DNA of 64,000 nucleotides from assembly GCA_946183145.1 (NCBI GenBank), contig CAMGZM010000002.1, positions 1 through 64,000 on the forward strand. The letters run 5' to 3'. This stretch comes from an uncultured Fretibacterium sp. (GTDB lineage Bacteria > Synergistota > Synergistia > Synergistales > Aminobacteriaceae). Both the position numbers and the translations under genes were made by a program. Below the pieces are notes generated by a model that saw nothing but the letters and a program-made list of their open reading frames with translations, did no database searches and was not told the DNA's origin. Position 1 is the stretch's first letter, and every line of letters starts with the position of its first letter. This document shows, piece after piece, positions 15,799-40,273 of this stretch.

Positions 15799-16131
15799 TT
15801 AGAGTGCTTCTCTGTTCTCCCAGATTGCTCCGCCTGCCTGACATGCCGGGCAAATGCAGTACTTGTTTCCCTGAGCTTTTGACTTCTTCGCGGCTTCTGC
15901 CATTCCTGCGGCCTTCTCAGCTCCGAAAAATTTCGCGCCTGCTTCCGACTCGCAAAGCCCTATGAGTTCGTCCACAGAGCAAACGTCAGCTTCAAGTGCT
16001 TTAACGAGTTTTGCGGCTGAGTCTTTGTCCTGCGATTTCACGTAAGACTCTGCGGCTGATTTTATGCCCGCGCATACGGACGGAGCGGCTATAAGTTCGT
16101 TGACTTTCGCGAGAATTTCCTGCTTTGTCAT
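15799..16131 (-). CDS. Small cytoplasmic protein with C-terminal CxxC, function unknown
   Basis: About 110 residues, starting MTKQEILAKVNELIAAPS. It is helical and alanine-rich, with scattered cysteines and a C-terminal CICPAC motif that could bind a metal or form a disulfide. Similar small proteins in anaerobic Firmicutes are often labelled Hsp90-like in databases, but nothing here resembles the Hsp90 ATPase fold, so I give no function. ATG 16131 fits the family N-terminus; an in-frame ATG at 16140 is also possible. The gene stands alone, divergent from the Gfo/Idh/MocA gene. Confidence 0.65.
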   Translation of the reverse strand: MTKQEILAKVNELIAAPSVCAGIKSAAESYVKSQDKDSAAKLVKALEADVCSVDELIGLCESEAGAKFFGAEKAAGMAEAAKKSKAQGNKYCICPACQAGGAIWENREAL

Positions 16132-16185
16132 AATTATCACGCTTTCTTGTTTGGGATTTTCTGTAATGATACCACACTAAAGAAT

Positions 16186-16214
16186 TTGCACACTCTTTGA
16201 AGAAATAATATAAT
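16186..16214 (+). promoter_or_regulatory. Sigma70-type promoter for the Gfo/Idh/MocA gene
   Basis: TTGCAC at 16186-16191 and TATAAT at 16209-16214 are separated by 17 bases, a near-consensus promoter reading toward the gene at 16299. Transcription should start near 16221, just before the dyad at 16228. Confidence 0.75.
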
Positions 16215-16227
16215 CTCTGAAAATTCA

Positions 16228-16255
16228 TACCACAAAAATTACGTATTATGTGGTA
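16228..16255. promoter_or_regulatory. Candidate operator: inverted repeat TACCACA / TGTGGTA
   Basis: A perfect seven-base inverted repeat (TACCACA at 16228-16234, TGTGGTA at 16249-16255, 14-base spacer) lies just downstream of the predicted transcription start. A third copy of TACCACA occurs at 16170-16176, upstream of the -35 box. Three half-sites around one promoter suggest a repressor site; the protein is unknown. The dyad could also fold as an RNA hairpin in the leader. Confidence 0.55.
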
Positions 16256-16298
16256 AGTAACAATAAAGATATTTCACAAGGGGAAAGGATTCACAATC

Positions 16299-17264
16299 AT
16301 GACGAAGAAAGTTGCAGTTATAGGCGTGGGGCATTTGGGCCAGCATCACGCGAGAATTTACACGGAGCTTCCCGATGCCCAGCTTGTGGGAGTTGCAGAC
16401 AGCGACATAGAGCGTGCGAGGTTCATCGGTGAACATCTTGGTGTGCCTGCTTACGGTTCATTTGAGGAGCTAATCAGCCGCAAATCTCCTGACGCAATAT
16501 CTGTAGTTGTGCCCACGAGCCAGCATTACGAGATCGCAAAGAAAGCACTTGAGGCGGGAATACACGTACTTGTTGAGAAGCCTGTAACTGTGAATCCTTC
16601 AGAGGCCGGAGAACTCTTAGAGATTGCCGACAAAAATAACCTTGTGCTTCAGGTAGGACATATTGAACGCTTCAACAGCGCGATACGTTACATGACGCAA
16701 ATAAACTGCCGCCCCGTTTACCTTGACGCTAGAAGAACAGCACCATTCACGCCGCGTATTAATGACGTTGGAGTCGTTCTTGACCTGATGATTCACGACA
16801 TCGATATAGTTATGTCCCTTGTGCCGTCAAAAATCACGAAAATAGCCGCGACTGGTGCGTGTGTTTTCACGGATCATGAAGACATTGCCGACGCTCATAT
16901 AACATTCGAGGACGGGACATTAGCGCATATACTCACATCGAGGTGCGCTCAGAAGAAATGCAGACAGCTTGAAGTTGTAGAGCGTGAGAGGCAAATTACG
17001 GTGAACTATGAGCTTCAGACGGTGCAAATTTCCCGCTGCGTGAATAACCCTGAAGGACAAGTAGAGATTCGCGAGACTCCAGTTTTCCCGAAAAGCGAGC
17101 CTCTGAAGTTAGAGCTTGCCGATTTCGTTCGGTGCGTGAGGGAACATCGTCCGCCTGTTGTCGGTGGCGGGGACGGGAAGAAAGCCCTTGAAGTTGCTGT
17201 AGAGATTCTCAGGCAGATACACGGCGGTGAATCGCAGGGGGTTGCATTTCCGGCGGCAATTTGA
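16299..17264 (+). CDS. Gfo/Idh/MocA-family NAD(P)-dependent oxidoreductase
   Basis: A 321-residue enzyme with N-terminal dinucleotide-binding loop GVGHLGQHHAR, the EKP motif (VLVEKPVTV) and the catalytic-region DLMIHDIDI. The sequence resembles the sub-group acting on UDP-GlcNAc in GlcN3N-type lipid A synthesis (GnnA-like), but no gnnB or lpx neighbour is present, so the substrate is open. AAGGGGAAAGGA precedes the ATG at 16299. A good promoter, a candidate operator and a downstream terminator make it a single-gene unit. Confidence 0.82.
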   Translation: MTKKVAVIGVGHLGQHHARIYTELPDAQLVGVADSDIERARFIGEHLGVPAYGSFEELISRKSPDAISVVVPTSQHYEIAKKALEAGIHVLVEKPVTVNPSEAGELLEIADKNNLVLQVGHIERFNSAIRYMTQINCRPVYLDARRTAPFTPRINDVGVVLDLMIHDIDIVMSLVPSKITKIAATGACVFTDHEDIADAHITFEDGTLAHILTSRCAQKKCRQLEVVERERQITVNYELQTVQISRCVNNPEGQVEIRETPVFPKSEPLKLELADFVRCVREHRPPVVGGGDGKKALEVAVEILRQIHGGESQGVAFPAAI

Positions 17265-17304
17265 CGAATGAATATCACGTAACAAAATCTGCGTTGTATT
17301 TTTG

Positions 17305-17346
17305 GCAGGGATTAGCTTCTGAGTGTAGGAGCATCCCTGCTTTTTT
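17305..17346 (+). terminator. Rho-independent terminator
   Basis: GCAGGGAT (17305-17312) pairs perfectly with ATCCCTGC (17333-17340), followed by six T. The T-run abuts the stop codon of the convergent LysR gene. Confidence 0.9.
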
Positions 17347-18242
17347 CATGCGTATAACTTCCCGGCCTCGTCAATAAAATATCTCGCATACGCAGGAATA
17401 TAGCTTCCTTTTCTCATGGCCGCAACAAAATCACTGTATACCCCGTTTTCCCCAAAACTGTACGTATCAATTTCAGGCTTCGGAGAATGCCAGCGCAAAT
17501 GACTCTCAAAGATGAATGACACGCCCCAGCCCTGTTCAGTGAGTGAGATTACGGCGGGCATGTTGTTTGTTGTGATTGAGTTCGTGAGGTCTATTCCTGC
17601 TTCTTTCAGGTAATGCCGGGAGATTTGCCCTGTCCTTTGTTCAGGTGAAAGGAGGATTAAACGCTCGTCCCGGATTGCTGCGAGGTCTAATTTTCCGTCA
17701 GCAGAAGAATCTTTCACTCGGTGATTTCGGCATGTGCATATCAATAACTCTTCAGGCGCGAGAGTCTCATACACTAAATGCGGGTTAAGCTCGTGAGGCT
17801 TGCTGTAGAACGCTAAATCTATATCGCCGTCGATTAATTTCTCGTCAATCATTGAGCTTGTTCCCTCAAAAATATTCACTTTCACATTAGGGTATTTCCT
17901 GCTGAAAACTGGAAGCGTTTTAGGGAGCATGAAAGCACACCGCATATTAGGCAGGCCGATATTCAGGACTCCTATATCGCGTTTTATGATGTCGGAAAGT
18001 TCAGCGTCAAGGCTCGATTTCATGTCAAGAATTTTCCGCGCGTATTCAACATAACGTTTGCCCGCGTAAGTGAGAATATATTTCTTGTCGGCACGGTCAA
18101 AAAGTTTCAGACCTAAATCGCTTTCGAGTCCCGATAAAAATTTGCTCAAGTTCGGCTGGCTGATGTAGAGCGATTCTGCTGCCCTTGTTAAATTCTGGTG
18201 CTTTGCGATTGCAGTTATGTATGACAGTTCCCGGAAATCCAT
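17346..18242 (-). CDS. LysR-family transcriptional regulator
   Basis: A 298-residue LysR protein. The N-terminal winged helix has the pattern LTRAAESLYISQPNLSKFL, followed by LGLKLFDRADKKYILTYAG and a periplasmic-binding-like effector domain. It is divergent from prpF, with a well-formed dyad in the shared 142-base intergenic region, so it very likely controls the prpF/MatC carrier pair, probably in response to a di- or tricarboxylate (inference). Confidence 0.9.
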   Translation of the reverse strand: MDFRELSYITAIAKHQNLTRAAESLYISQPNLSKFLSGLESDLGLKLFDRADKKYILTYAGKRYVEYARKILDMKSSLDAELSDIIKRDIGVLNIGLPNMRCAFMLPKTLPVFSRKYPNVKVNIFEGTSSMIDEKLIDGDIDLAFYSKPHELNPHLVYETLAPEELLICTCRNHRVKDSSADGKLDLAAIRDERLILLSPEQRTGQISRHYLKEAGIDLTNSITTNNMPAVISLTEQGWGVSFIFESHLRWHSPKPEIDTYSFGENGVYSDFVAAMRKGSYIPAYARYFIDEAGKLYA

Positions 18243-18301
18243 TATCTTTTCACCGCTTAAAATAATTCCTTCCGTTTATGGACTTGATGAATAAAACATA
18301 T

Positions 18302-18321
18302 TTCACATCGTGATTTGTGAA
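18302..18321. promoter_or_regulatory. Candidate LysR operator between the LysR gene and prpF
   Basis: TTCACA (18302-18307) and TGTGAA (18316-18321) form a perfect inverted repeat with an eight-base spacer, consistent with the T-N11-A rule. It lies 63 bases before the prpF start in a divergent intergenic region, the classical position for a LysR recognition site. Confidence 0.6.
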
Positions 18322-18384
18322 TGATATTCTTTGCGCATCAATTCCACAATACACAAAAAACATAAAGCAGGAGGATCAAATCCA

Positions 18385-19536
18385 ATGTCAGACAGCGTAA
18401 AGAAGCTGCCAGTAACTATTATGCGCGGCGGAACAAGCAAAGGCGTGTACATTCTTGAAGACGACATGCCCGCAAATCATGACGAGTGGGAGTCGTTGTT
18501 ATTGAGGCTGATGGGAAGCCCGGACTCAAAGCAGATTGACGGACTCGGAGGCTCATATTCAGTAACAAGCAAAGTCGCAATCATCAAGAAATCCTCAAAC
18601 CCGGAAGCCGATGTAGATTACACGTTCGCGCAGGTAAGCGTAGACAAGCCGTTAGTCAGCTACAAAGGGAACTGCGGGAATATCTCATCAGGAGTCGGGC
18701 CTTTTGCGATTGAGCGCGGACTCGTTGAGGCAAAAGACGGAGTTACGAGCGTTCGTATCTTCAACACAAACACAAACAAGATAATCATTGCTGACGTTCA
18801 GACACCCGGCGGGGAAGTAACATATTCAGGAGATTTTGCGATCGCGGGAGTACCCGGCACAGCATCGCCCGTAAAGCTGAAATTTGTGCGTCCTTCCGGC
18901 ACATTAGGGAAGGGATTATTACCTACGGGGAATGTGATTGATACGCTTGATGTTCCGGGATTCGGAAAAGTTGATGTGTCTATTGTTGACGCTGCAAATC
19001 CGTTAGTGTTCGTTAAGGCTCATGATATAGGCTTGACGGGTAAAGAGCTTCCCGATGATTTGAACGCAAAGCCCGAAATGCTTGACCTTCTCGAAAAGAT
19101 TAGAGGCCTCGCCGCGCAAAGACTTGGCCTCATTGACGACTACACAAAATCAGCGTGGGAAACTCCAGGAATCCCGAAAATGACATTTGTAGCCAGTCCC
19201 GAAAATTATACGACATCAGACGGAAAATCAATCGCAAAAGGAGATATTGACCTTCTCTCGCGCATGATGTCAATGCAGAAGCCTCACCCGTCTTACGCAA
19301 TGACGGGAGCAATGTGCACAGCAGCAGCAGCAGTAACGCCCGGTTCAGTTGTGAATCAGGTTTTAGCCCCGAACGCTGACACGCAGTTTATACGCATAGG
19401 ACATCCCGCCGGGATTCTCGAATGCGGAGCGGATTTCACGATTCCTGAAGGCGCAAAAGTCCCCGAAATTGATGACACATTCGGCTTCAGAACAGCGAAT
19501 TTCATCATGGACGGAACAGCACGCATAAGGCTCTAA
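18385..19536 (+). CDS. prpF: PrpF-family isomerase (aconitate/oxalomesaconate/methylitaconate type)
   Basis: About 383 residues with the PrpF N-terminus MRGGTSKGVYI and the catalytic-loop motif GNCGNISSGVGPFAIE (Cys about 97, Lys about 19). PrpF proteins have a diaminopimelate-epimerase fold and move a double bond in unsaturated tricarboxylates, for example methylaconitate, 4-oxalomesaconate or 3-methylitaconate; which one cannot be told here. The ATG at 18385 follows AGGAGG; an upstream ATG at 18331 has no ribosome site. The organic-acid carrier gene 22 bases downstream suggests catabolism of an imported acid. Confidence 0.88.
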   Translation: MSDSVKKLPVTIMRGGTSKGVYILEDDMPANHDEWESLLLRLMGSPDSKQIDGLGGSYSVTSKVAIIKKSSNPEADVDYTFAQVSVDKPLVSYKGNCGNISSGVGPFAIERGLVEAKDGVTSVRIFNTNTNKIIIADVQTPGGEVTYSGDFAIAGVPGTASPVKLKFVRPSGTLGKGLLPTGNVIDTLDVPGFGKVDVSIVDAANPLVFVKAHDIGLTGKELPDDLNAKPEMLDLLEKIRGLAAQRLGLIDDYTKSAWETPGIPKMTFVASPENYTTSDGKSIAKGDIDLLSRMMSMQKPHPSYAMTGAMCTAAAAVTPGSVVNQVLAPNADTQFIRIGHPAGILECGADFTIPEGAKVPEIDDTFGFRTANFIMDGTARIRL

Positions 19537-19558
19537 CACACAAAGGGGGTAAATCACA

Positions 19559-20824
19559 ATGCAGGAATATTTGCCGGTAATATCTCTTCTCGTTCTGGCT
19601 GTCGTTGTTGCAATAGGCTTCATCAAGAAAATCAATCTCGGATTCTTTGCACTCGGCGCGGCGTTCGTATTGGGTACTGTCGGAGGAATGAAGGCATCAC
19701 AAATCACAGCGGGATTCAGCTCGTCAATGTTCGTGACTCTTGTCGGTGTTACGTTCATGTTCGGAATGGCTTCGCAGAATGGAACGCTTGAATTGTTCTC
19801 GAAAAAAGTTGTCGCCCTTGTCGGAAAACATACGGTGCTGATCCCGATTCTTATGTTCGTATTGTCGGCTTTCATTTCAGCGATCGGTCCGGGACATATT
19901 GCGGCGGGAATCTTAATGACAACTTTTGCGATGTACCTTGCGTTTGAGATGGACATTAACCCGATGGCTACATCACTTTACGCGAAGCTCGGAGCTAACG
20001 CGGGGTGCGCTTCTACTTTGTCGATAACGGGAATTTTAGCGGCTCAATTGTCGAATCCTATGGGCTATTCGGGATTCGGGCTTCATCTGTTCTTGTCGAC
20101 TCTCCTTTCGGGATTCGTTTTCACGCTGATTGTGTACATACTCTACAAGGGCTATGCTGTTAAGGCTGATAACCCGCTGAAGTGGTCAGAGATTCCGAAA
20201 TTCAACCGCGAGCAGAAAATCACCGTTGCAGTAATCGTTGTAGTAGTTGTATGCTGCATAGGCTTCAAGCTAGACACAGGATTATTCGCGTTCCTCGCCG
20301 CAAGCGTATTGATTCTCACGGGCTGCGCTGACGAAAAGAAAGCCATAAAGGGAATCCCTTGGGGGACTCTCGTGTTCATCTGCGGAGTCGGCGCATTGGT
20401 CAACGTCATAAACAAGCTCGGAGGCATAAAACTTGTGTCGGATTATCTCTCTACGTTAATGACAACAAACACAGCGGTCCCGATAATGTCCGCAACGTCA
20501 GGTATACTTTCATGGGTAAGTTCGACAACTGGAGTCGTTATGCCGGCATTGCTCCCGATTGCTGACAACGTAGCGAGGACTTTCGGAGTCAGTTACATCG
20601 AATTGATGTCAGGGATAATTGCAACGTCATTCGCGGCGGCGATAAGTCCCCTTTCAACGGGAGGAGCTATCATAATGTCGTCATACAGCGCGAGCAAAGA
20701 GACAACGACAGAAGAAATGAATAACATGTTTAAGACTCTTTTCCTTCTTTCAGTTGCGAACGTCTTAATCAACGTATTAATGTCATGGCTTGGAGTCTTT
20801 AATCTCGGTCATCTGTTCTACTAG
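19559..20824 (+). CDS. SLC13/MatC-type carboxylate carrier
   Basis: A 421-residue membrane protein with about 11-12 hydrophobic segments, the first at residues 5-22. Segments with GPGHIAAGILM and GGAIIMSSYSAS sit where ion-transporter-superfamily carriers have their conserved hairpin motifs. The N-terminal half resembles the MatC dicarboxylate carrier domain. It probably exchanges or takes up the di- or tricarboxylate handled by PrpF. Short spacing (22 bases, GGGGGT ribosome site) indicates a two-gene operon, closed by a terminator. Confidence 0.82.
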   Translation: MQEYLPVISLLVLAVVVAIGFIKKINLGFFALGAAFVLGTVGGMKASQITAGFSSSMFVTLVGVTFMFGMASQNGTLELFSKKVVALVGKHTVLIPILMFVLSAFISAIGPGHIAAGILMTTFAMYLAFEMDINPMATSLYAKLGANAGCASTLSITGILAAQLSNPMGYSGFGLHLFLSTLLSGFVFTLIVYILYKGYAVKADNPLKWSEIPKFNREQKITVAVIVVVVVCCIGFKLDTGLFAFLAASVLILTGCADEKKAIKGIPWGTLVFICGVGALVNVINKLGGIKLVSDYLSTLMTTNTAVPIMSATSGILSWVSSTTGVVMPALLPIADNVARTFGVSYIELMSGIIATSFAAAISPLSTGGAIIMSSYSASKETTTEEMNNMFKTLFLLSVANVLINVLMSWLGVFNLGHLFY

Positions 20825-20848
20825 TTAATACTCCTCATATAAAAATTT

Positions 20849-20882
20849 TCCCTCTGGTCTTTCATGGCCGGGGGGATTTTTT
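20849..20882 (+). terminator. Rho-independent terminator of the prpF operon
   Basis: TCCCTCTGG pairs over nine bases (two G-U) with CCGGGGGGA, followed by six T at 20877-20882. A copy of the enriched octamer CATGGCCG (20863-20870) forms the loop and part of the 3' stem arm. Confidence 0.88.
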
Positions 20883-20908
20883 GTGAGTTTTTTGCACCGT
20901 GATATTAT
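20881..20908 (+). promoter_or_regulatory. Promoter for lepA-hemW
   Basis: TTGTGA at 20881-20886 and TATTAT at 20903-20908 have a 16-base spacer. The -35 box overlaps the preceding terminator's T-run. The ribosome site GAGGTG lies shortly before the lepA ATG. Confidence 0.6.
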
Positions 20909-20925
20909 TTCCGTGAGGTGAAATC

Positions 20926-22728
20926 ATGAACAATATCCGAAACTTTTGCATAATAGCTCACATCGATCACGGAAAATCTACATTAGCCGACAGACTTTTA
21001 GAATCAACCGGGACAATCTCATCACGCGAAATGAAAGCTCAGGTTCTCGACTCGTTAGCACTTGAACGCGAAAGAGGAATCACAATTAAGCTCGTTCCAG
21101 TGCGAATGGATTACACAGCCGATGACGGGCAGAAATATATCCTCAACCTGATAGACACTCCAGGCCATGTAGATTTTGCGTATGAAGTCTCGCGCTCACT
21201 TGCGGCATGTGAAGGAGCATTGCTGGTTGTTGACGCAACACAGGGAGTCGAGGCTCAGACAGTCGCAAACGCATATCAGGCTATAGATCAGGGACTCGAA
21301 ATTCTCCCCGTAATCAACAAGATAGATCTTCCGTCAGCAAGACCAGACAACGCAAAGCAGGAAATCTCCGACGTTGTAGGACTCGACGCTTCAGACGCAG
21401 TTTTGACGAGCGCGAAAACAGGAGAAGGAGTCCATGACATATTAGAACGAATCGTGAAAGAAATTCCATCACCATCAGGAGACCCTCAAGCACCTCTTCA
21501 AGCGTTGATATTCGACTCAGTTTACGACAATTACAGGGGCGTGATTTGCTACGTCCGAGTCATGAACGGGACAATAAAGGCCGGGCAAAATATTATGTTC
21601 ATGCAAAACGGAATCACTTACCCCGTGAACGAGGCGGGAGTCTTCAAGCCGGGCTTCACACCCGTAAACGAACTCAAAGCGGGGGAAGTCGGCTACATCA
21701 CTGCGAGCATTAAGACACTTGCAGAAGCTCAAGTAGGCGACACGATTACGGACGCGAACAACCCGGCAAAATCTCCGCTGCCAGGCTACAAGAAGGTGAA
21801 GAGCGTTGTGTTCTGCGGATTCTACCCTGTAGAGCGCGACAATTACCCGCAATTACGCGACGCGCTGGAGAAATTATGCCTCAATGACTCCGCCGTTACG
21901 TATGAGCCGGAAAGCTCCGAGGCATTAGGATTCGGATTCAGATGCGGTTTTCTCGGACTGCTTCACATGGACGTTGTACGCGAAAGACTCAGGGAGGAAT
22001 ACGGAGTCGAACTCGTAGCAACCGCGCCGAACGTAATATATGAAGTCGTCAAAAGCAACGGTGATGTGATAGAAGCTCATCGGCCTTCAGATTTCCCGGA
22101 TGCGTCAGAGATTGCCGAAATTCGCGAGCCGTATATCAAGCTGTCTGTGTTCATGCCCTCAGAATTTACCGGGCGCGTTATGCAGTTAGTACAGGACAAA
22201 CGAGGAACGTATAAATCAATGGACTATATCACGCCGGAACGTGTGAGACTGGTTTACGAGATGCCATTGTCAGAATTTATTGTAGACTTTCATGACAAAC
22301 TGAAATCACAGACAAGGGGATATGCTTCACTCGACTATGAATTAATAGGGCTGAAGGCAAGCGACTTAGTGAGGGTTGATATTCTTGTGAACGGTGAGGC
22401 GGCTGACGCGTTTTCATTCATCTGCCACAAAGACCAGGCATATAACCGCGGCCATGCTGTAGTAACAAAGCTCAAAGAGTTAATACCGTCGCAACTTTTC
22501 GAGATTCCCATTCAGGCATCAATCGGAAGAAGGGTAATCGTACGCGTAAATGTCCGTGCGCTGAGAAAAGATGTATTAGCGAAATGTTACGGAGGAGATA
22601 TTACGAGGAAGCGCAAATTACTGGAGAAACAGAAAGAGGGCAAAAAGCGAATGAAGCAGATCGGCAAAGTCTCAATTCCTCAAGAGGCATTCTTAGCTTT
22701 CATGCAGGTTGATACGGGTGAAAAGTGA
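20926..22728 (+). CDS. lepA: Elongation factor 4 (LepA), ribosome-dependent GTPase
   Basis: Exactly 600 residues, the normal LepA length. G1 is [11 protein letters not shown]3 is DTPGH and G4 is NKID. The body shows EF-G-like domains II, III and V, and the LepA-specific C-terminal domain includes [20 protein letters not shown]. LepA acts on stalled or tense ribosomes during elongation or assembly. The stop overlaps the hemW start (GTGA), so the two are translationally coupled, an arrangement seen in many bacteria. Confidence 0.98.
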
Positions 22729-23828
22729 TTAGGGACTTCACACTTCACACTAAACACTGCTCACTGTATATTCATGTTCCGTTCTGCGAGAGGAAATGCG
22801 GTTATTGCTCCTTCTATAGCATAACCGACAAACGCGGCGTTAATTCGTGGCTTGAGGCTGTGAAACGCGAGGCAGAGTCATATTCACGTCATGGCCGTAT
22901 CAATCTTTCGACGCTGTACATCGGCGGAGGGACTCCCACAGTTTTGACTCTCTCAGAATGGGAGTCTCTGATGTCGATAATCCGCGATAATTTCGACACG
23001 TCATCAATCACTGAAGCAACGACAGAAGCAAATCCCAATTCCCTAACGCCTGAGTATATAGCATTCTTTCAGGACAATAATTTTACGCGCATAAGTCTCG
23101 GAGTACAGAGCATGAATGACACGGAGCTTTTGACATTGGGACGCATTCACGATTCTGAATCAGCAAGAAACGCAATGAGTCTCGTGAAATCTTCCGGCTT
23201 GAATCTTAGCTGTGATTTGATTTTCGCGATACCCGGCCAGACTCTAAGGTCATGGGATTATTCGCTGCGTTCAGTGATGGATTATGCTAATCATATTTCG
23301 TGCTATCAGCTGACGTTAGAGCCTGACGCGCCAATGTTTGAGAAATACGGCGGTGATGACCTGAACGGAGTCGGCTATAAGTTCTACCGTTACGCGCAGT
23401 ATATTCTTCCCCGTCATAATTTCACGCAGTACGAGATTTCGAACTTTGCGGCTTCCGGCCATGAATGCAAACACAATTTAGCGTACTGGAATCATTCGGA
23501 CGTTATAGTACTTGGGCCTTCTGCTGTGAGTTATGTTGACGGAGTGAGATACACGAATCCTAAAACGCTTGCGGAATATTCAGCAGGCATTGAGCCAGTG
23601 AGGGAAAAATTATCGCCGAGGGAGTCAGAAATTGAGCTTGCTATATTATCTTTGCGGACGAGATTCGGAGTCTTGCGGAAAAATCTGCTTCCTGAGATTG
23701 AACGCGCTGTATCAGAAATGCCCCCGGATTTGTTCGTGATTACTCCTGAGAGAATCGCATTATCTCCACGGGGCATGAGATTGGGAAATTATATCTGGTC
23801 GGAAATTATGTTATACGCTGAGAGTTAA
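22725..23828 (+). CDS. hemW: HemW-type radical SAM protein (coproporphyrinogen oxidase-like)
   Basis: A 367-residue radical SAM protein. The [4Fe-4S] motif [10 protein letters not shown] (CxxxCxxC) follows YIHVPFC, and GGGTPT and the C-terminal HemW domain are present. HemW proteins act as haem chaperones rather than true oxygen-independent coproporphyrinogen oxidases; the CxxC-x-F form supports HemW. Start is GTG at 22725, overlapping the lepA stop. Its 3' end overlaps the convergent coiled-coil gene by four bases. Confidence 0.9.
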
Positions 23829-24490
23829 GCCCTGATTTTCGCGCTGTTCTCGGCTATTGCTTCAGCGATTAAGCGTTTGACATCTTCAAGCGTTACTGCT
23901 GGTGTACGATGTTCCTTGTGAAAATCCCAGTACTTGTTGATAAGCGGAACAGCTAACATTACTCCTAAAAGAACAAGTATCAAGTAAAGAAAATTATGTG
24001 TGTCATCAATCCGTTTGTTGACTCCGCTCAAGCCTTCATCAATACGCTTGTTGACTGCGCTCAAGCCTTCATCAATACGCTTGTTAACTGCGCTCAAGCC
24101 TTCATCAATACGCTTGTTAACTGCGCTCAAACCTTCATCAATACGCTTGTCCATTACGTCCATACGTTTTTCTACTCCCTCAAATCGAGCGTCCATCTTT
24201 TTTTCCAGCCCGTTAATACGTTCTGACAATGATTTTTCCACGCCGTCAATCTTTTTGTCAAGACCGTTAATACGTTCCGACAATGATTTTTCCACGCCGT
24301 CAATCTTCTTGTCCAGCCCGTCAATACGTTCCGACAATGAGTCAATCTTGCCTTCAATCCTCGTCAAAAGCAGCTCCATTTTTGCGTCAAAAACATCCTT
24401 CCTCACATAAACGCTCATATCTTCAGACGCTCCCAATGACACCGAACACATAACGCACGTCATCAATACCGCGCAAAATATTTTCTTCAT
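23825..24490 (-). CDS. Repeat-rich coiled-coil protein with signal sequence and C-terminal membrane anchor
   Basis: 221 residues. The N-terminus is a signal peptide (MKKIFCAVLMTCVMCSVSLG|AS). Residues about 45-160 form a continuous coiled coil made of two repeat families: an 18-residue unit (SERINGLDKKIDGVEKSL) and four copies of an 11-residue unit (KRIDEGLSAVN). A hydrophobic segment (NFLYLILVLLGVMLAVPLI) is followed by a charged tail. The topology suggests a periplasmic coiled coil tethered to the inner membrane. I recognise no named family. The 11-residue period is a hendecad, favouring straight rather than supercoiled helices. Confidence 0.75.
   Translation of the reverse strand: MKKIFCAVLMTCVMCSVSLGASEDMSVYVRKDVFDAKMELLLTRIEGKIDSLSERIDGLDKKIDGVEKSLSERINGLDKKIDGVEKSLSERINGLEKKMDARFEGVEKRMDVMDKRIDEGLSAVNKRIDEGLSAVNKRIDEGLSAVNKRIDEGLSGVNKRIDDTHNFLYLILVLLGVMLAVPLINKYWDFHKEHRTPAVTLEDVKRLIAEAIAENSAKIRA
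24008..24139. repeat. 33-bp tandem repeat, four copies, within the coiled-coil gene
   Basis: Four direct copies of a 33-base unit (24008-24040, 24041-24073, 24074-24106, 24107-24139) differ at only a few bases and encode the 11-residue coiled-coil repeat. Near identity suggests recent expansion by slippage or unequal recombination; the unit is a multiple of three, so the frame is kept. Confidence 0.9.
24205..24345. repeat. 54-bp tandem repeat, about 2.6 copies, within the coiled-coil gene
   Basis: A 54-base unit encoding 18 residues is repeated between about 24205 and 24345 with only a few substitutions. Together with the adjacent 33-bp array it makes the gene a candidate length-variable locus. 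Confidence 0.8.
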
Positions 24491-24552
24491 GGCCGCAAAC
24501 CTCCCTGTGATTTCTTGTTCGTATTCTCTTGCAATGTGGTAGAATATTCAAG

Positions 24553-24647
24553 TCCGGCTCAATGCGGCGGAAACCTGCGAACCGTGTCAGATCGGGAACG
24601 AAGCAGCACTAAGCAGAATTTTCCGGGTGCCATTGAATACCGGGCAA
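24553..24647 (+). ncRNA. ffs: Signal recognition particle RNA, small bacterial (4.5S) type
   Basis: The conserved apical loop is present as GTCAGATCGGGAACGAAGCA, matching the SRP RNA consensus. The usual C-G pair closing the GGAA loop is replaced by G-C, a compensatory change. Outer pairings also fit: CCGG with CCGG at the ends, CAATG with CATTG, GGC with GCC, CTGC with GCAG. A run of seven T (24648-24654) ends it. It is the RNA scaffold that binds Ffh. An upstream TAGAAT at 24539-24544 could be its -10 box. Confidence 0.92.
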
Positions 24648-24653
24648 TTTTTT

Positions 24654-25694
24654 TCACTCCCAAAAGCGTCCCTTACTCCTGAAATACGACTCCAAAACTT
24701 TATCCGCGAGGTTAGGCGAGATTCTTTTCAGCAGCTTGTAGACTGTGTGTTTCCGTTTGCTGATTAGAGTCCTGAATAATTCCGGGCGGCTTAATTTTTG
24801 CGCGTTAGATTCTGATTCACGTATGATTTTGCAGGCCGATAAATAGCGGTTCGACTCTCTCAACGCCCATTCACGGCAGATTCTTATAGCGTCAATCCTC
24901 GATGAGTATATATCGCCGTCAATAATCTCATGTATCTTTGCGATTGAGCCTTTCACATCATCAACATCAATCACCTCAAGCCCGCGTTTGTCCGGGACGT
25001 GATTCAGAATCTCAGGGTCTCCGAAATACACCGGCAATGACCATCCCGCCCAAGCGTCTGTGAGTTTCTCCGTCCAGTAATTTTTGTGCCGTGAGTTTTC
25101 GATCGCAACATGATACTTGTACGGTGCTATTGCTGTGAGTTTGTCATCAACTGGATTATATTCCCGCCCGTAGCAGTCAATTATTCCCGGAAATTCTTTC
25201 TGCAACGCCTGAATAAATTTTACGCGCTTCCTGTGATACTCGGTGCTGTGTCTTAATGATGTTACTGTTGATATTATTCGAGTCTTTTCGGGGATTGGGT
25301 AATTCATTGCCTTTGTGAATGAGTCCATTTCTCCCGATATTCCCGCCGTCCAGCCTAATTTAGGATTTGAGATTATGACTCGCCCGTTGAAGCCGGGAAT
25401 TTCCGACATTGATACGATTGTCCCAAATTGCTGAAGATAGTACATGTACGCGGAATAATCGCGAATCTCCGGGGGCTCACCGAAAAATAGTATTCTCCGT
25501 TCTCTGGGAATGTCCGTGTAAAAGCATGAGTGAGAGCTGTCGCAAACTATGAGCCAGTCAGAACCGTACCAGCTTCCTTTTTGTGATGTGAAGAAATATT
25601 CCCCGCTTAACATTCTGCCTTCTCCGTTATCGCTGAGGAATGACGACGATTTGAAGTTATCATGATATGGCGCGTCAAAAATTTTCATGCTCAT
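24654..25694 (-). CDS. Family 10 glycosyltransferase (alpha-fucosyltransferase-like)
   Basis: A 346-residue protein with the GT10 donor-binding signature YKYHVAIENSRHKNYWTEKL followed by GWSLPVYFGDPEI, the part of alpha-1,3/4-fucosyltransferases that binds GDP-fucose. The C-terminal tail is basic (SKRKHTVYKLLKRISP), as in bacterial GT10 enzymes that sit on the membrane. It probably decorates an outer-membrane glycan with fucose. ATG 25694 overlaps the stop of the upstream GT2 gene (TAATG); an in-frame ATG at 25688 is an alternative. Confidence 0.85.
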   Translation of the reverse strand: MSMKIFDAPYHDNFKSSSFLSDNGEGRMLSGEYFFTSQKGSWYGSDWLIVCDSSHSCFYTDIPRERRILFFGEPPEIRDYSAYMYYLQQFGTIVSMSEIPGFNGRVIISNPKLGWTAGISGEMDSFTKAMNYPIPEKTRIISTVTSLRHSTEYHRKRVKFIQALQKEFPGIIDCYGREYNPVDDKLTAIAPYKYHVAIENSRHKNYWTEKLTDAWAGWSLPVYFGDPEILNHVPDKRGLEVIDVDDVKGSIAKIHEIIDGDIYSSRIDAIRICREWALRESNRYLSACKIIRESESNAQKLSRPELFRTLISKRKHTVYKLLKRISPNLADKVLESYFRSKGRFWE

Positions 25695-35003: not shown

Positions 35004-35639
35004 CTACTTGATGAATTTTACCTGCTCGCTGATTTTTGCTACCTGCTCATCTTTCTTCTTGTTGTATTCGACTTTCTTCTCCTCGAAATAATTTCTTCCC
35101 TGAGCGTCAATCGACACAATAAGCGGCCCGAACTCTTTTACGCGGCAGTTCCACAAAGTCTCAGGCATTCCCAGATCGCGCCATTCAGCTTTTACGATCT
35201 CCTCGACACATACGGCAGCAACAACAGCATTTCCGGCGGGGATTACACAGTGAATGCAGCCGAAATCCTTGCAGGCGTTGGCGGTGTTCTCCTTCATTCC
35301 GCCTTTGCCGACGATTACGCGGACTCCTGTGATTTTCACAAACTCGTACTCGAACTTCTCCATACGCATTGACGTTGTAGGCCCGACTGAAACCATCTCG
35401 AACTTGCCATTATCGGAGTCAATCGGACGGATTATCGGCCCGGCGTGAAGTATTGCGTTGTTGCGTACGTCAACGGGAATCTCTCTGCCCTCTTCCACGA
35501 CTCTCCTGTGCGCTACGTCCCGGCATGTTGTGAGGCTTCCTGACAAGTACACTATATCGCCTATCTTTATGTCTTTGAGGTCTTCCGCGCTTATGGGTGT
35601 TACGAGAATTTTCTTGCCGTCTCTGATTTCCACTGACAT
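35004..35639 (-). CDS. ttdB: L(+)-tartrate dehydratase / class I fumarase, beta subunit
   Basis: A 211-residue protein. The swivelling domain of Fe-S hydro-lyases is recognisable by GDIVYLSGSLTTCRDVAHRR, HAGPIIRP, VSVGPTTSMRM and VGKGGM, ending in CRVKEFGPLIVSIDAQG. It closely follows the pattern of E. coli TtdB. It forms the catalytic unit with the alpha subunit, dehydrating tartrate to oxaloacetate or, if fumarase, hydrating fumarate. ATG overlaps the alpha-subunit stop by one base. Confidence 0.88.
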   Translation of the reverse strand: MSVEIRDGKKILVTPISAEDLKDIKIGDIVYLSGSLTTCRDVAHRRVVEEGREIPVDVRNNAILHAGPIIRPIDSDNGKFEMVSVGPTTSMRMEKFEYEFVKITGVRVIVGKGGMKENTANACKDFGCIHCVIPAGNAVVAAVCVEEIVKAEWRDLGMPETLWNCRVKEFGPLIVSIDAQGRNYFEEKKVEYNKKKDEQVAKISEQVKFIK

Positions 35640-36529
35640 TAGAACTTCACCCCCGAATGTGATAACACTTCAACATTGAGATCTTTGTCGAATATGATAT
35701 GCCCTCTTCTGTGGCTCCAGCATCCTACGTTCACGGCGACTCCGATTGCTGACGGATGGCGGGCAGTGTTCTCGATATTCACGCCCATAACCGCATAATT
35801 TCCGCCCATACCCTGAGGGCCGAGTCCGATTGCGTTAATTCCGTCCTCTAACAGCTTCTCCATTTTCGCGGCTCTTTCGTTGGGATTGTGCGAGCCTATC
35901 GGGCGCATTAATGCTTTTTTCGACAGGAGCGCGGCTGTTTCTACTGACGTTGCTACACCGACTCCCACAAGAAGCGGCGGGCAGGCGTTAAGTCCGTAAG
36001 TTGTCATGCGGTCAAGAACGAATTTTGTGACTCCCTCGTAGCCTTCTCCCGGCATGAGAACCATTGCATGACCCGGCAGTGTGCATCCGCCCCCGGCCAT
36101 GTACGTGTAAATCTCGCACTTGTCGGAATGTGGCACTATATCCCAAAACACTGTGGGAGTACCTTTGCCGACATTTTTCCCGGTGTTGTACTCGTCAAAA
36201 GTTTCAACCGAGTTATGACGGAGAGGAGTCTCAAACGTCGCTTTGATTACGGCCTCTTTCAACAACGCTTCAAGGTCATCAATCAGCGGGAATTTTGTTC
36301 CGCATTTCACCCAGAACTGAAGAACGCCTGTATCCTGGCATGAAGGGCGGTCAAGTTTCACGGCTAACTCCTGATTCCTGAACATCGTATCGTAGATTAC
36401 TTTTGCCATAGGGCTGTCTTCTTTTGCGCGGAGTTCCTGAAGTTTCGCGATTACGTCATCAGGCAATTTCTTTGCGGTATGTCCGACAAACTTTGCGATT
36501 ATGTCGGTCATCTTTTCGACCTGTGTCAT
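35639..36529 (-). CDS. ttdA: L(+)-tartrate dehydratase / class I fumarase, alpha subunit
   Basis: A 296-residue oxygen-sensitive [4Fe-4S] subunit. Cluster-ligand cysteines are visible in RPSCQDTGV, AGGGCTLPG and VGCWSHRRG. The sequence matches the E. coli TtdA pattern closely (NTGKN, PLRHNSVE, RPIGSHNPN), so tartrate dehydratase is favoured over fumarase, but the two overlap in specificity. It is followed by ttdB and preceded by an SLC13 carrier, parallel to the E. coli ttdA-ttdB-ttdT set. Confidence 0.88.
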   Translation of the reverse strand: MTQVEKMTDIIAKFVGHTAKKLPDDVIAKLQELRAKEDSPMAKVIYDTMFRNQELAVKLDRPSCQDTGVLQFWVKCGTKFPLIDDLEALLKEAVIKATFETPLRHNSVETFDEYNTGKNVGKGTPTVFWDIVPHSDKCEIYTYMAGGGCTLPGHAMVLMPGEGYEGVTKFVLDRMTTYGLNACPPLLVGVGVATSVETAALLSKKALMRPIGSHNPNERAAKMEKLLEDGINAIGLGPQGMGGNYAVMGVNIENTARHPSAIGVAVNVGCWSHRRGHIIFDKDLNVEVLSHSGVKF

Positions 36530-36559: not shown

Positions 36560-37687
36560 TTATGCCGCCGGGAAAAACGGGAAGGCCATCGGCAGTAATA
36601 TCATGCTTACTATTGTTGCGATTATGATTAACGGCAGTCCTGCTTTCACGTAATCCATGAACCTGTAATCCCCTGCTCCGACTACCATTGTGTTTGCGGG
36701 CATTCCGATAGGAGTCGCATAAGCGCATGAGCCGCCGATAACGCACGCCATCAATACGGCTCTCGGGTCAGCGTTCATTCCCTGAGCGATTGAGAGGCAT
36801 ATCGGAGCCATGAGAGCGGTTGTCGCTGTGTTGCTCATGAAGTTTGTCATCACACAGCAGAGTATGAACACAACGAACGTGAACATTGTCGGAGAAGGAT
36901 TCTCACCTAACGCGCCTATTACGGTCTCAGCGATTAATTTCCCCGCTCCTGTTTTGTCGAGGGCAGTAGCAAGTGAGAGAGTCCCGCCGAAAAGGAATAT
37001 CGTTTTGAGGTCAATGGATTTCAGCGCGTCTTCTTCTGAGATTACGTTGAAGACGATTAAAAGTATTGCGCCTATACAGCCGGTGATGCTGAGTGAGATA
37101 TGAATCTGTTTCTCGAATATCATACCGAGAAGAGTCAGAACGAGAATTATCAGCGATAAATTTTTCTTCCACTGAGGGACTGCGGAAAAATCTTTCTGTT
37201 TGTCAAATACTCCCTCGCCTTTAGGGTCATGATTCGGGAGAAGGTAGAAGCCTATTGTAGCGTAGAAAAGTATTCCCACAGCAAGAATCGGAAGTCCCAC
37301 AATCGCGTACTCAAAGAAGCCGAATCCCTCAAGCCCTGCTTTTGTCAGCGTTGACTGTGCTATGAGATTTCCGGGCGCGCCTATCATTGAGAGATTTCCG
37401 CCCATAGCCGCCGCGAATACGAGAGGCATCAACAGCCGCGAACGTTTGAAGCCCGATTTTGCCGCAATGCCAATCACGACAGGAATCAATACCGCCGCCG
37501 TTCCTGTGTTCGACAAAACACCGCTCATCAATCCGACAATTGTCATAATCGCGACGATTAACATTCTCTCAGAGCTTGCGAATTTCGTTACAATTCCGCC
37601 GATCTCGTTCGCCATTCCCGTCTCAAACAACGCGCCGCCAACGATGAACATTGCGACAAAGAGAATCACATTGCTGTCAGTGAAGCA
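36560..37687 (-). pseudogene. SLC13/DASS dicarboxylate carrier, N-terminally truncated
   Basis: The frame encodes about 370 residues of an SLC13-type carrier: NTGTAAVLIP, GNLSMIGAPGNLIA and the second signature SNTATTALMAPI. Family members have roughly 60-100 more residues at the N-terminus. Going upstream the family match runs to FTDSNVILF and then meets an in-frame TAA at 37688-37690. The first start (GTG at 37669) lies inside this conserved segment and has no ribosome site. The adjacent bases read FLAFAIVML in another frame, like a carrier's first membrane segment, suggesting an internal deletion. Probably non-functional. By context it imported tartrate or another C4 acid for TtdAB. Confidence 0.72.
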
Positions 37688-37739
37688 TTACGATTGCAAA
37701 CGCGAGGAAACACAAAGATAAATATTAATCCTCAAAATG

Positions 37740-38930
37740 TCAAGGATACTTCACGGGAAAATTTTGCTGTCTTTCAGATTCCAATTTTGGTCGCACCTTT
37801 CCTGTGAGAAGATCATTCATTGCGCCGTCTCGTATGCTTGAGATTTTTGCGCGTTCGGTTTCGAGTGATGATATTTCTTTGTCGAGTGCTGAGAGTGTAT
37901 CAGCGATTGCTATTTGTTCGTCGAGGGGCGGAAGGGGGATTGAGTATGCTGTAATTATTTTTTTTGAAATATGAGATAATCCCCCACCTAATGATAGACC
38001 TTGAATTTCTTTGCGTCTGTAAAGTAAAGAATAAAATATAAATTTGTTGTAAACTCCATCATACACTTCACAAGCACAACAATTTTGATTTGTAGTTGCA
38101 GGCACGTCTAATATAGATAACTTACCTACTGTTTCTCCACAATACATAGCTATTAGAATAGTACCGGGATTTTTTATCCTTAAGAAGTTTTCCCTTAACG
38201 CTTTTTCTGTAATTTTTTCTTCCGTACTTTTCAAAATACCATCGTTGAGGTCTGTATTCTTTACCCAAGAAATATTACCATTCACATAATACTCAGGATT
38301 ATTCCTTGAAGGTGTTGAACCTGATTCCCATTTGCCAATCTCCCCTAATGTTCTCACCTCCCAATCACCGCAGAACCCTTCAAGCCGAGTCCGCCCGGTC
38401 ATAAGCTCATCAAGTGCGCCGTCCCGGATTGCTTTCTTCTTGGTGATTAGCTCCGTGAGATTCGTTATGTGCGTGTCGAATGCCGCGAGAGTTTCGGCTA
38501 TTGCTGTTTGTTCTTTGAGCATTGGCAGGGGGATTAGAAGGTTGCGTAAATCATGCCCGGTTAATTTTGGAATGTTACCGTGAATCAGCTCGGATATATT
38601 AATTGTCTGAAGGTAGTAGAAGAGATAACGTAAAGAAGTTCCCTCCTTTTCTGCGATGACATGAGCATGATTATTTACCCATATTTTTCCTTCAGCCCAA
38701 GTTACAACAGGATTGCCATTAGGAGTTATAACGCTTCCATCTTCACCGACTAATACATATGTCCCATCAAAAATATAACTAGACACATAATCAAGAATCC
38801 CATTCGCACCATAATAAGGATATTTGCCAGCTACACGCGCTGAACTGCTAACAGGCTTTCTTTTGTTGTCCAGAATCACGCAACACTCTTCAAGTTTTTT
38901 GACCTCCCAATCACCCGGATATATCACCAT
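37740..38930 (-). CDS. hsdS: Type I restriction-modification specificity subunit (HsdS), orphan
   Basis: A 396-residue HsdS with the usual two target-recognition domains (about 1-130 and 190-325), each followed by a conserved helical spacer (EQTAIAETLAAFDTHI and EQIAIADTLSALDKEI, then IRDGAxxxLxTG). Both halves start GDWEV. No hsdM or hsdR lies nearby: lysA is upstream and the damaged carrier downstream. The target-recognition regions (about 37950-38330 and 38590-38850) are visibly AT-richer than their neighbours, pointing to transfer. It may be a donor cassette for a type I system elsewhere. GAGGGGGAT upstream of ATG 38930 could be a ribosome site. Confidence 0.88.
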   Translation of the reverse strand: MVIYPGDWEVKKLEECCVILDNKRKPVSSSARVAGKYPYYGANGILDYVSSYIFDGTYVLVGEDGSVITPNGNPVVTWAEGKIWVNNHAHVIAEKEGTSLRYLFYYLQTINISELIHGNIPKLTGHDLRNLLIPLPMLKEQTAIAETLAAFDTHITNLTELITKKKAIRDGALDELMTGRTRLEGFCGDWEVRTLGEIGKWESGSTPSRNNPEYYVNGNISWVKNTDLNDGILKSTEEKITEKALRENFLRIKNPGTILIAMYCGETVGKLSILDVPATTNQNCCACEVYDGVYNKFIFYSLLYRRKEIQGLSLGGGLSHISKKIITAYSIPLPPLDEQIAIADTLSALDKEISSLETERAKISSIRDGAMNDLLTGKVRPKLESERQQNFPVKYP

Positions 38931-38986
38931 ACGTAACCCATCCCCCTCAAAGCATTATGCACACGCCAACGCTCAAAACTCACGAT

Positions 38987-40273
38987 TTACTCCGCCTGAC
39001 CCCGCACAATATCTTCAAGGCTCTGACGCTCAGCAACGACTCTCGCTTCTCCGTTCTCCGCAAAAATCACAGCAGGCCTCGGAAGACAGTTATACGTGCT
39101 GGACATGCTGAAGGTGTATGCGCCAGTGTTGAACAGCGCAATGACATCACCGGGCTTCACTCTCTGAATTTCTGCGTCATCAATGAGAATATCACCAGAC
39201 TCGCAGCACTTTCCGACGATTGAGACTTTTCCGCCGTTCTTGGGACGGTAGATTTCTCCGTCAGCGTCATCAACTTTCACAGCGTTGTACTCTGCCTGAT
39301 AGAGCGCGTAACGTGGGTTGTCTGACATTCCGCCGTTCACAGCAATGTATGTGATTTCGGGAAGCTCGCGGACATTCTCGACAGTGTAGAGCGTTATACC
39401 TGACTCGGAAATTATCCAGCGTCCAGGCTCAAGAATCGCGCAGGGAACTTCAAGCCCGAAATTTTTGCACCCGTCGTAAAGAGTCTTCATCATAGGCTCA
39501 GTGTAAAATTCTGACTTCATGGCCGGGACTGAAGGATTTATCACAGCTCCGAATCCCCCGCCCATGTTAAGCTCGCGGGTCGTGAAATTGAGATTGTCTT
39601 TCAGGTCTTTCATCAAACGCAAAATTACTTCAAGCGATTTCGTGTAGTCGCCAGTGTCAAAAAGCTGTGAGCCTACATGAAAGTGTAATCCGGTCATGTC
39701 GATATGCTGACATTCACGCGCGAATTTTATCGCCTCCGTAAGCATTGAGCCTTCACGGGAATCGGCCGGAACTCCGAACTTTGAGTCAGTGCTTCCTGTC
39801 GCAATGTACTTGTGTGTATGCGCGTCAACTCCCGGCGCGACTCGAATCATTACCTTCTGGACTCTTCCTGCTTTTGCGGCAAATTCCTCGATAGTCTTCA
39901 GCTCATCAGGGTGATCCACGATTATGCGCCCGACTCCTGACTCTACTGCGTACTGAATCTCGCGGCGGCTTTTTGCGTTCCCGTTCATCTCTATATCTTC
40001 AGGAGGAAATCCCGCGCTTAATGCTGTGTACAGTTCACCCTCCGAAACAACATCGAGTCCGATTCCTTCCTTGTGAATCAATCTCGCCATCGCACGAATC
40101 AGGAATGCTTTTCCCGCGTAACGGACTTTCGTATTTGGCCAGCGGTTAAAGAATGTATCACGCAATTCCTTGCAGCGCGAACGGATTATCCCCGTGTCAA
40201 AAACATATAACGGAGTCCCGAATCTTTTCGCTAATTCCTGGCAGTCAATCCCGCCCCATGTTAAACGCAGCAT
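38987..40273 (-). CDS. lysA: Diaminopimelate decarboxylase
   Basis: A 428-residue PLP enzyme of fold type III making L-lysine from meso-diaminopimelate. The PLP lysine sits in VRYAGKAFL, with GLDVVSEGEL, HFHVGSQ, NMGGGFG, EPGRWI and the late CESGDIL segment. No lysine riboswitch-like leader was seen upstream. The upstream sequence is the divergent intergenic region shared with the PAS-dynamin gene. Confidence 0.95.
   Translation of the reverse strand: MLRLTWGGIDCQELAKRFGTPLYVFDTGIIRSRCKELRDTFFNRWPNTKVRYAGKAFLIRAMARLIHKEGIGLDVVSEGELYTALSAGFPPEDIEMNGNAKSRREIQYAVESGVGRIIVDHPDELKTIEEFAAKAGRVQKVMIRVAPGVDAHTHKYIATGSTDSKFGVPADSREGSMLTEAIKFARECQHIDMTGLHFHVGSQLFDTGDYTKSLEVILRLMKDLKDNLNFTTRELNMGGGFGAVINPSVPAMKSEFYTEPMMKTLYDGCKNFGLEVPCAILEPGRWIISESGITLYTVENVRELPEITYIAVNGGMSDNPRYALYQAEYNAVKVDDADGEIYRPKNGGKVSIVGKCCESGDILIDDAEIQRVKPGDVIALFNTGAYTFSMSSTYNCLPRPAVIFAENGEARVVAERQSLEDIVRGQAE

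Follow-up and report, generated by a model that had tools for sequence, protein, structure and literature searches.

How does a full-length Type I specificity gene, hsdS, come to stand apart from its operon, between lysA and a tartrate operon with a broken carrier gene, and could it still find a partner? We examined this arrangement in a window of 64,000 nucleotides (the whole stretch of DNA analysed) from an uncultured Fretibacterium sp., using comparisons with the rest of its genome and with other genomes of the genus. A preliminary description of the window had read the site as a recombination junction that brought in hsdS and deleted part of the carrier. The features concerned are as follows.

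35004..35639, minus strand: ttdB, L(+)-tartrate dehydratase beta subunit (NCBIfam equivalog NF006082, 351.7 bits, cut-off 264)
35639..36529, minus strand: ttdA, L(+)-tartrate dehydratase alpha subunit (NCBIfam equivalog NF006084, 545.7 bits, cut-off 365)
36560..37685, minus strand: 3' part of the carrier gene (DASS/SLC13), from codon 51 of relatives onward; no usable start seen
37686..37712, minus strand: 27-bp island, first membrane segment of the carrier (codons 9–17, FLAFAIVML), from comparison with relatives
37715..37743, minus strand: kept promoter of the carrier operon, TTGACA-17-TATCTT (10 of 12 consensus matches; relatives' upstream DNA)
37740..38930, minus strand: orphan hsdS, 396 aa, tail PKLESERQQNFPVKYP (PF01420 twice; comparison with the C9 operon)
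37762..37766, no strand: junction between the hsdR start and DNA from upstream of the carrier (the C9 match stops at 37766; carrier-type DNA follows, by eye)
37766..38963, minus strand: whole hsd piece (hsdM 3' end, hsdS, hsdR-start overlap), as matched to the C9 operon
38924..38963, minus strand: last 12 codons and stop of hsdM, VHNALRGMGYVW (within a 59-bp exact match to the C9 operon, 38963–38905)
38964..38986, minus strand: short filler after lysA, perhaps the beginning of an Rpn-like gene (AATCGTGA is common to relative G057 after the lysA stop; weak)
38987..40273, minus strand: lysA, diaminopimelate decarboxylase-type (PF02784 and PF00278)

An orphan hsdS of the C9 group

The window hsdS is a full-length open frame with both recognition domains (TRDs) and both conserved regions (CR1 and CR2); the latter two contain a direct repeat of 62 bp (76% identity). 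Two Methylase_S domains (PF01420) mark its product as a Type I HsdS, which matches the solved HsdS 1yf2 (E 4.5e-51) through two chain stretches, both aligned to query residues 181–382. The gene had been described as AT-rich, and it is: its GC content is 40.5% (34.5% in TRD2) against 47.6% for the window, and no 1,191-bp stretch of the window, sampled every 200 bp, has a lower value. It had also been described as lacking hsdM and hsdR, which is correct in that no complete copy of either adjoins it, but the last 12 hsdM codons and an overlap with the hsdR start are present.

These remnants belong with one operon, on contig C9 of the same genome, which is the sole match of the window hsdS there at 1e-15. 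The C9 operon is complete, with open frames for hsdM (777 aa), hsdS (403 aa) and hsdR (1,034 aa), and its HsdM and HsdR score over the NCBIfam cut-offs. The match to it spans from 38963, 33 bp before hsdS, to 37766, a position 8 bp past the C9-type hsdS stop and inside the hsdR start. At its 5' end the window gene keeps its C9 context, as the C-terminal residues of C9 HsdM are the same as those encoded immediately upstream of it; near its 3' end, a 1-bp difference from C9 leads into another frame and yields a tail unlike that of the three hsdS genes compared.

At the DNA level, the piece has three conserved blocks in common with C9, of 92.8%, 94.4% and 94.0% identity; the longest exact common runs measure 59, 56, 41 and 41 bp, and no DNA match to the C9 operon was found for the TRDs. 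The conserved regions of the window hsdS therefore match one resident operon while its TRDs differ. Differences from C9 in the conserved blocks come to about 4 nonsynonymous against 6 synonymous changes and 4 against 3, numbers too small to reveal selection. In the protein, CR1 has 86% identity to C9 and CR2 has 98% identity to genome G022, and 43 of the 45 residues in one CR2 block are the same as in C9. TRD1 is 93% identical to that of G044, where an open hsdS stands between open hsdM and hsdR frames, whereas none of the compared loci comes close to TRD2 (best matches, 38% over 117 residues and 32% over 148). Judged by these comparisons, the window HsdS is a mosaic, and exchange with the C9 hsdS at the common runs is possible.

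The junction between lysA and the tartrate operon

Comparison with relatives supports the earlier reading of the site as a rearrangement junction, because in none of the relatives read does lysA adjoin the carrier. A lysA match occurs in 39 of 43 genus genomes (own included), and lysA was absent from the carrier flank in all 13 relatives whose available flank was searched. Directly upstream of the carrier, nine of these 13 have a gntR-type frame (labels by eye, one Pfam-scanned); one such protein, searched against the window's own genome without a positive control, gave no match. In two relatives (loci L079 and L020), a long, divergent FeoB-like frame (label by eye) takes the place of gntR, so the upstream neighbour of the carrier operon varies. 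On the other side, none of the 38 relatives with a lysA match has an hsdS match on the lysA contig. Among the 29 relatives' loci read beyond lysA, 13 have a fliD-like and four an Rpn-like frame next, labels that rest on crude residue patterns. On the evidence of these carrier flanks and loci after lysA, an ancestral lysA–carrier adjacency was rejected.

In the closest relative, G057 (lysA, 92%), homology to the window's lysA block stops at 38980. The gene that follows lysA there is one we take to be Rpn-like, and a fliD-like frame accompanies it (names by eye), so that an hsdS at this locus of G057 was rejected; searches of that genome returned neither an hsdS at 1e-15 nor a carrier at 1e-60. 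Short nuclease-transposase-like frames, presumably Rpn-like, lie directly after lysA in several relatives, at locus L111 (13940–14212) and at L115, L118 and L120; the 90-aa frame in L111 has no NCBIfam match. The comparison with G057 further showed window positions 15799–24656 to be inverted relative to the lysA block, which makes this a much rearranged region.

The window's own genome holds what appears to be the other side of the break. Its fliD-like gene lies on contig C10, and the DNA preceding it corresponds, by eye, to the relatives' lysA–fliD spacer from the lysA stop on. The two breaks thus lie at the lysA stop and within DNA upstream of the carrier promoter, respectively. No reciprocal hsd piece was found upstream of fliD on C10, where family searches gave no HsdS, HsdM or HsdR. 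No genus genome searched combines an hsdS at this place with an intact carrier. That hsdS arrived together with the junction, as the preliminary description proposed, is likely as an inference from this arrangement.

Two deletions in the carrier gene

The carrier does lack its N-terminal region, as first described. A TAA at 37688–37690 (minus strand; TTA on the plus strand) lies in frame, right before the segment FTDSNVIL and 7 codons before a GTG at 37669, which is only an internal start of the carrier frame (36560–37669). The neighbouring-frame segment FLAFAIVML proved to be carrier codons 9–17, and the hsdS 3' end does lie about 50 bases further on, with its stop at 37740, 50 bp from the TAA. 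What remains of the carrier is 91–96% identical to 13 relatives, whose open frames encode 429–476 aa. The intact carrier was found in 22 of 42 genus relatives (13 of 24 in a first set and 9 of 18 in a further one), in every case as an open frame of at least 429 aa; the 20 in which none was found include both incomplete and nearly complete genomes.

The lesion is real but consists of two separate deletions, not one, flanking the 27-bp island. The first, of about 90 bp, removed the leader, the start and codons 1–8: from the -10 box to codon 9 there are 92–96 bp in relatives and 4 bp in the window. The second, of 98 bp, took codons 18–50, with its deletion point at about 37685/37686; codon 17 is separated from codon 51 by 99 bp in relatives and 1 bp here. 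Because 98 is not a multiple of three, the island and the remainder stand in different frames. Deletion points were read from unaligned DNA, and the length pattern fits four of the seven relatives tried; a MAFFT alignment put the window's promoter in the wrong place and was not used for them.

Both deletions lie downstream of a promoter that was kept. In relatives the upstream DNA carries TTGACA-17-TATCAT, with the same boxes and spacing, and the case for the promoter rests on this likeness, since a promoter scan alone is no evidence (the carrier promoter is the best of 6 promoter-like sites, and shuffled DNA gives 5.0). The hsdS stop codon falls within the -35 box. The border between hsd and carrier DNA is thus upstream of the promoter and the deletions are downstream of it, which excludes a simple insertion of hsdS into the carrier and leaves unsupported the proposal that the arrival of hsdS deleted part of the carrier.

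The remaining carrier frame bears no sign of relaxed selection: its mean pairwise pN/pS is 0.085 for the window against 0.088 among 22 relatives, and the ttdA control gave 0.051 against 0.050 among 17 relatives (17 of the 22 loci, the other five being incomplete or missed by the pattern). These values rule out a long-decayed carrier and indicate that the loss was probably recent. The open frame and the unraised pN/pS could also be taken to mean that translation from an internal start (GTG 37669 or ATG 37657) still yields a shortened, working carrier, which we find scarcely credible; a recent lesion accounts for the open frame, and no ribosome-binding site was seen by eye before the internal starts. 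The carrier of an intact relative aligns over its residues 12–413 to the DASS/SLC13 transporter VcINDY (PDB 4f35, 5ul7); within the first 50 residues, which the window copy lacks, it aligns with VcINDY from VcINDY residue 28 onward. The window frame scores 185.5 bits, below the TIGR00785 (DASS) cut-off of 198.6, whereas the one intact relative scanned scores 220.

We regard the carrier loss as an ordinary recent gene loss, a known kind of event. Its promoter now faces ttdAB, which may be transcribed from it, and both TtdAB subunits pass their equivalog cut-offs as L(+)-tartrate dehydratase. The earlier statement that TtdAB was left without its linked importer holds for the linked carrier, but a loss of tartrate uptake is unsupported: the loss is local, because six other CitMHS-family frames are present in the genome.

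Origin and possible role of the orphan hsdS

On balance, we think it probable that the junction was filled by a displaced hsdS of the C9 group that gives the C9 system a second recognition sequence, and that two deletions recently turned the carrier into a null allele. In this sequence of events, a rearrangement would have joined lysA to the tartrate operon (carrier–ttdA–ttdB) with a gene-sized fragment of a Type I operon between them, captured while the breaks were being joined, and the two small deletions would have nulled the carrier downstream of its promoter. The displaced gene could act by two routes. The window HsdS may join C9 HsdM (and HsdR) in trans, expressed by read-through from lysA; or the gene may serve as a donor, with recombination at the common conserved stretches passing its recognition domains to the C9 hsdS.

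The main rival is erosion of a second operon. The piece would then be the last remnant of a full hsdMSR operon, its hsdM and hsdR lost to deletions extending as far as lysA at one end and the carrier promoter at the other, and hsdS would have survived by chance or because its protein was still useful. Fragments of both hsdM and hsdR do remain, the genes flanking such operons differ among the relatives read (by eye), and the carrier deletions are evidence of DNA loss from this region. The borders, however, lie 33 bp before the start and 8 bp past the usual stop of hsdS, and so tight a fit, which capture during joining would explain, should seldom result from two random deletions when the genes measure 2.3 and 3.1 kb. 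A probable orphan in genome G017 likewise departs from its operon at the hsdR start codon, as judged against G044. We therefore consider erosion fairly unlikely. About as likely as erosion, and a substantial minority possibility, is that hsdS is dead DNA in the course of being lost, either unexpressed or without any HsdM with which it can pair. Its C-terminal tail is altered, the neighbouring carrier is already broken, and a scan found no promoter-like site on the minus strand between lysA and hsdS; yet the frame is open and full-length with all its domains, and its conserved regions retain the high identities to C9 and G022 given above. No terminator-like site was found on that strand between lysA and hsdS, in a scan that is weak (2 sites against 2.0 in shuffled DNA).

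That the junctions or the carrier deletions are assembly artefacts, and not present in the organism, we consider very improbable. The assembly is a draft of 25 contigs, and one border coincides with the 59-bp exact repeat shared with C9, at which the two hsdS genes could possibly have been swapped. Against this, the joined stretches have only a few bases in common at the junction points (by eye), the conserved blocks of the orphan and C9 differ by about 6%, and the counterpart of the lysA-stop break is present at fliD on C10.

The arrangement recurs. At the DNA level, the 3' end of this hsdS family occurs in 8 of 43 genus genomes, own included. The window's genome has a second orphan hsdS at C1:455018–456235 (L073, 3018–4235), about 12 kb from a complete hsdMSR operon at C1 440–447k (L072). 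In its two conserved blocks it has 92.1% and 93.5% identity to the operon's hsdS (C1 442k), and for its TRDs no match to that operon was found, so that an orphan per resident operon is seen twice in this genome (C2, the window's piece, with C9, and C1 455k with C1 442k). No hsdM or hsdR frames occur in the 9.7 kb read around the C1 orphan, nor any flanking match to either, and the tight borders of the window piece are accordingly no rule. In G017, contigs C267 (L181, 1–297) and C406 (L182, 1–303) start inside the same TRD2 and are identical over 141 bp; C267 continues into hsdR, whereas C406 leaves the operon sequence for another gene. C406 thus probably represents an orphan hsdS from a different species; because the contig ends on the 5' side of the gene, an hsdM–hsdS pair without hsdR is conceivable. 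Where readable, borders fall within tens of bases of the gene in two of these three orphans (C2, C1 455k and G017). Further HsdS-type and N6-methylase matches were seen in the same genome at C3 60–63k (L074) and C3 200k (L075), with no HSDR_N match at either. A genus-wide process, in which hsdS travels out of hsdMSR operons as a gene-sized cassette into unrelated junctions and forms a dispersed specificity library for resident HsdM, is a speculative and quite doubtful extension.

Published accounts offer points of comparison. Locus 6 of Moraxella catarrhalis is, like the window gene, a distal hsdS without hsdM or hsdR that belongs to the same homology group as a complete Type I locus at another site and has common repeats beside variable TRDs; movement of TRDs between loci was described there across 51 genomes, whereas we have one genome, in which the hsdM and hsdR ends and the broken-carrier junction can be seen (PMC6241649). 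In the S genes of Helicobacter pylori, domain movement (DOMO) likewise involves conserved repeats adjoining two TRDs, which would permit exchange both inside a locus and from one locus to another; here there is no allele series, and exchange is suggested by the mosaic (PMC3077401). Inverting, phase-variable Type I loci, with duplicated hsdS and inverted repeats in many species, also have two hsdS with different TRDs for one HsdM family (PMC7394358), but near hsdM; no such duplicate was found here, the second hsdS being on another contig. Not all orphan hsdS are functional, since in Staphylococcus epidermidis, where an hsdS without its own hsdM is also described, each HsdS works only with its paired HsdM (PMC6918075). 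The window hsdS differs from that case in having conserved regions close to those of C9, its candidate partner.

A distal orphan hsdS of a resident group is thus already known, from Moraxella, and it is the clarity of the borders that is unusual here. The locus presents a Type I specificity gene set apart from its operon and kept, with borders defined to the base and a candidate partner operon, C9, named. If it acts in trans, one HsdM family would mark two sequences in its own genome, and this would be relevant both to defence and to introducing DNA into such strains.
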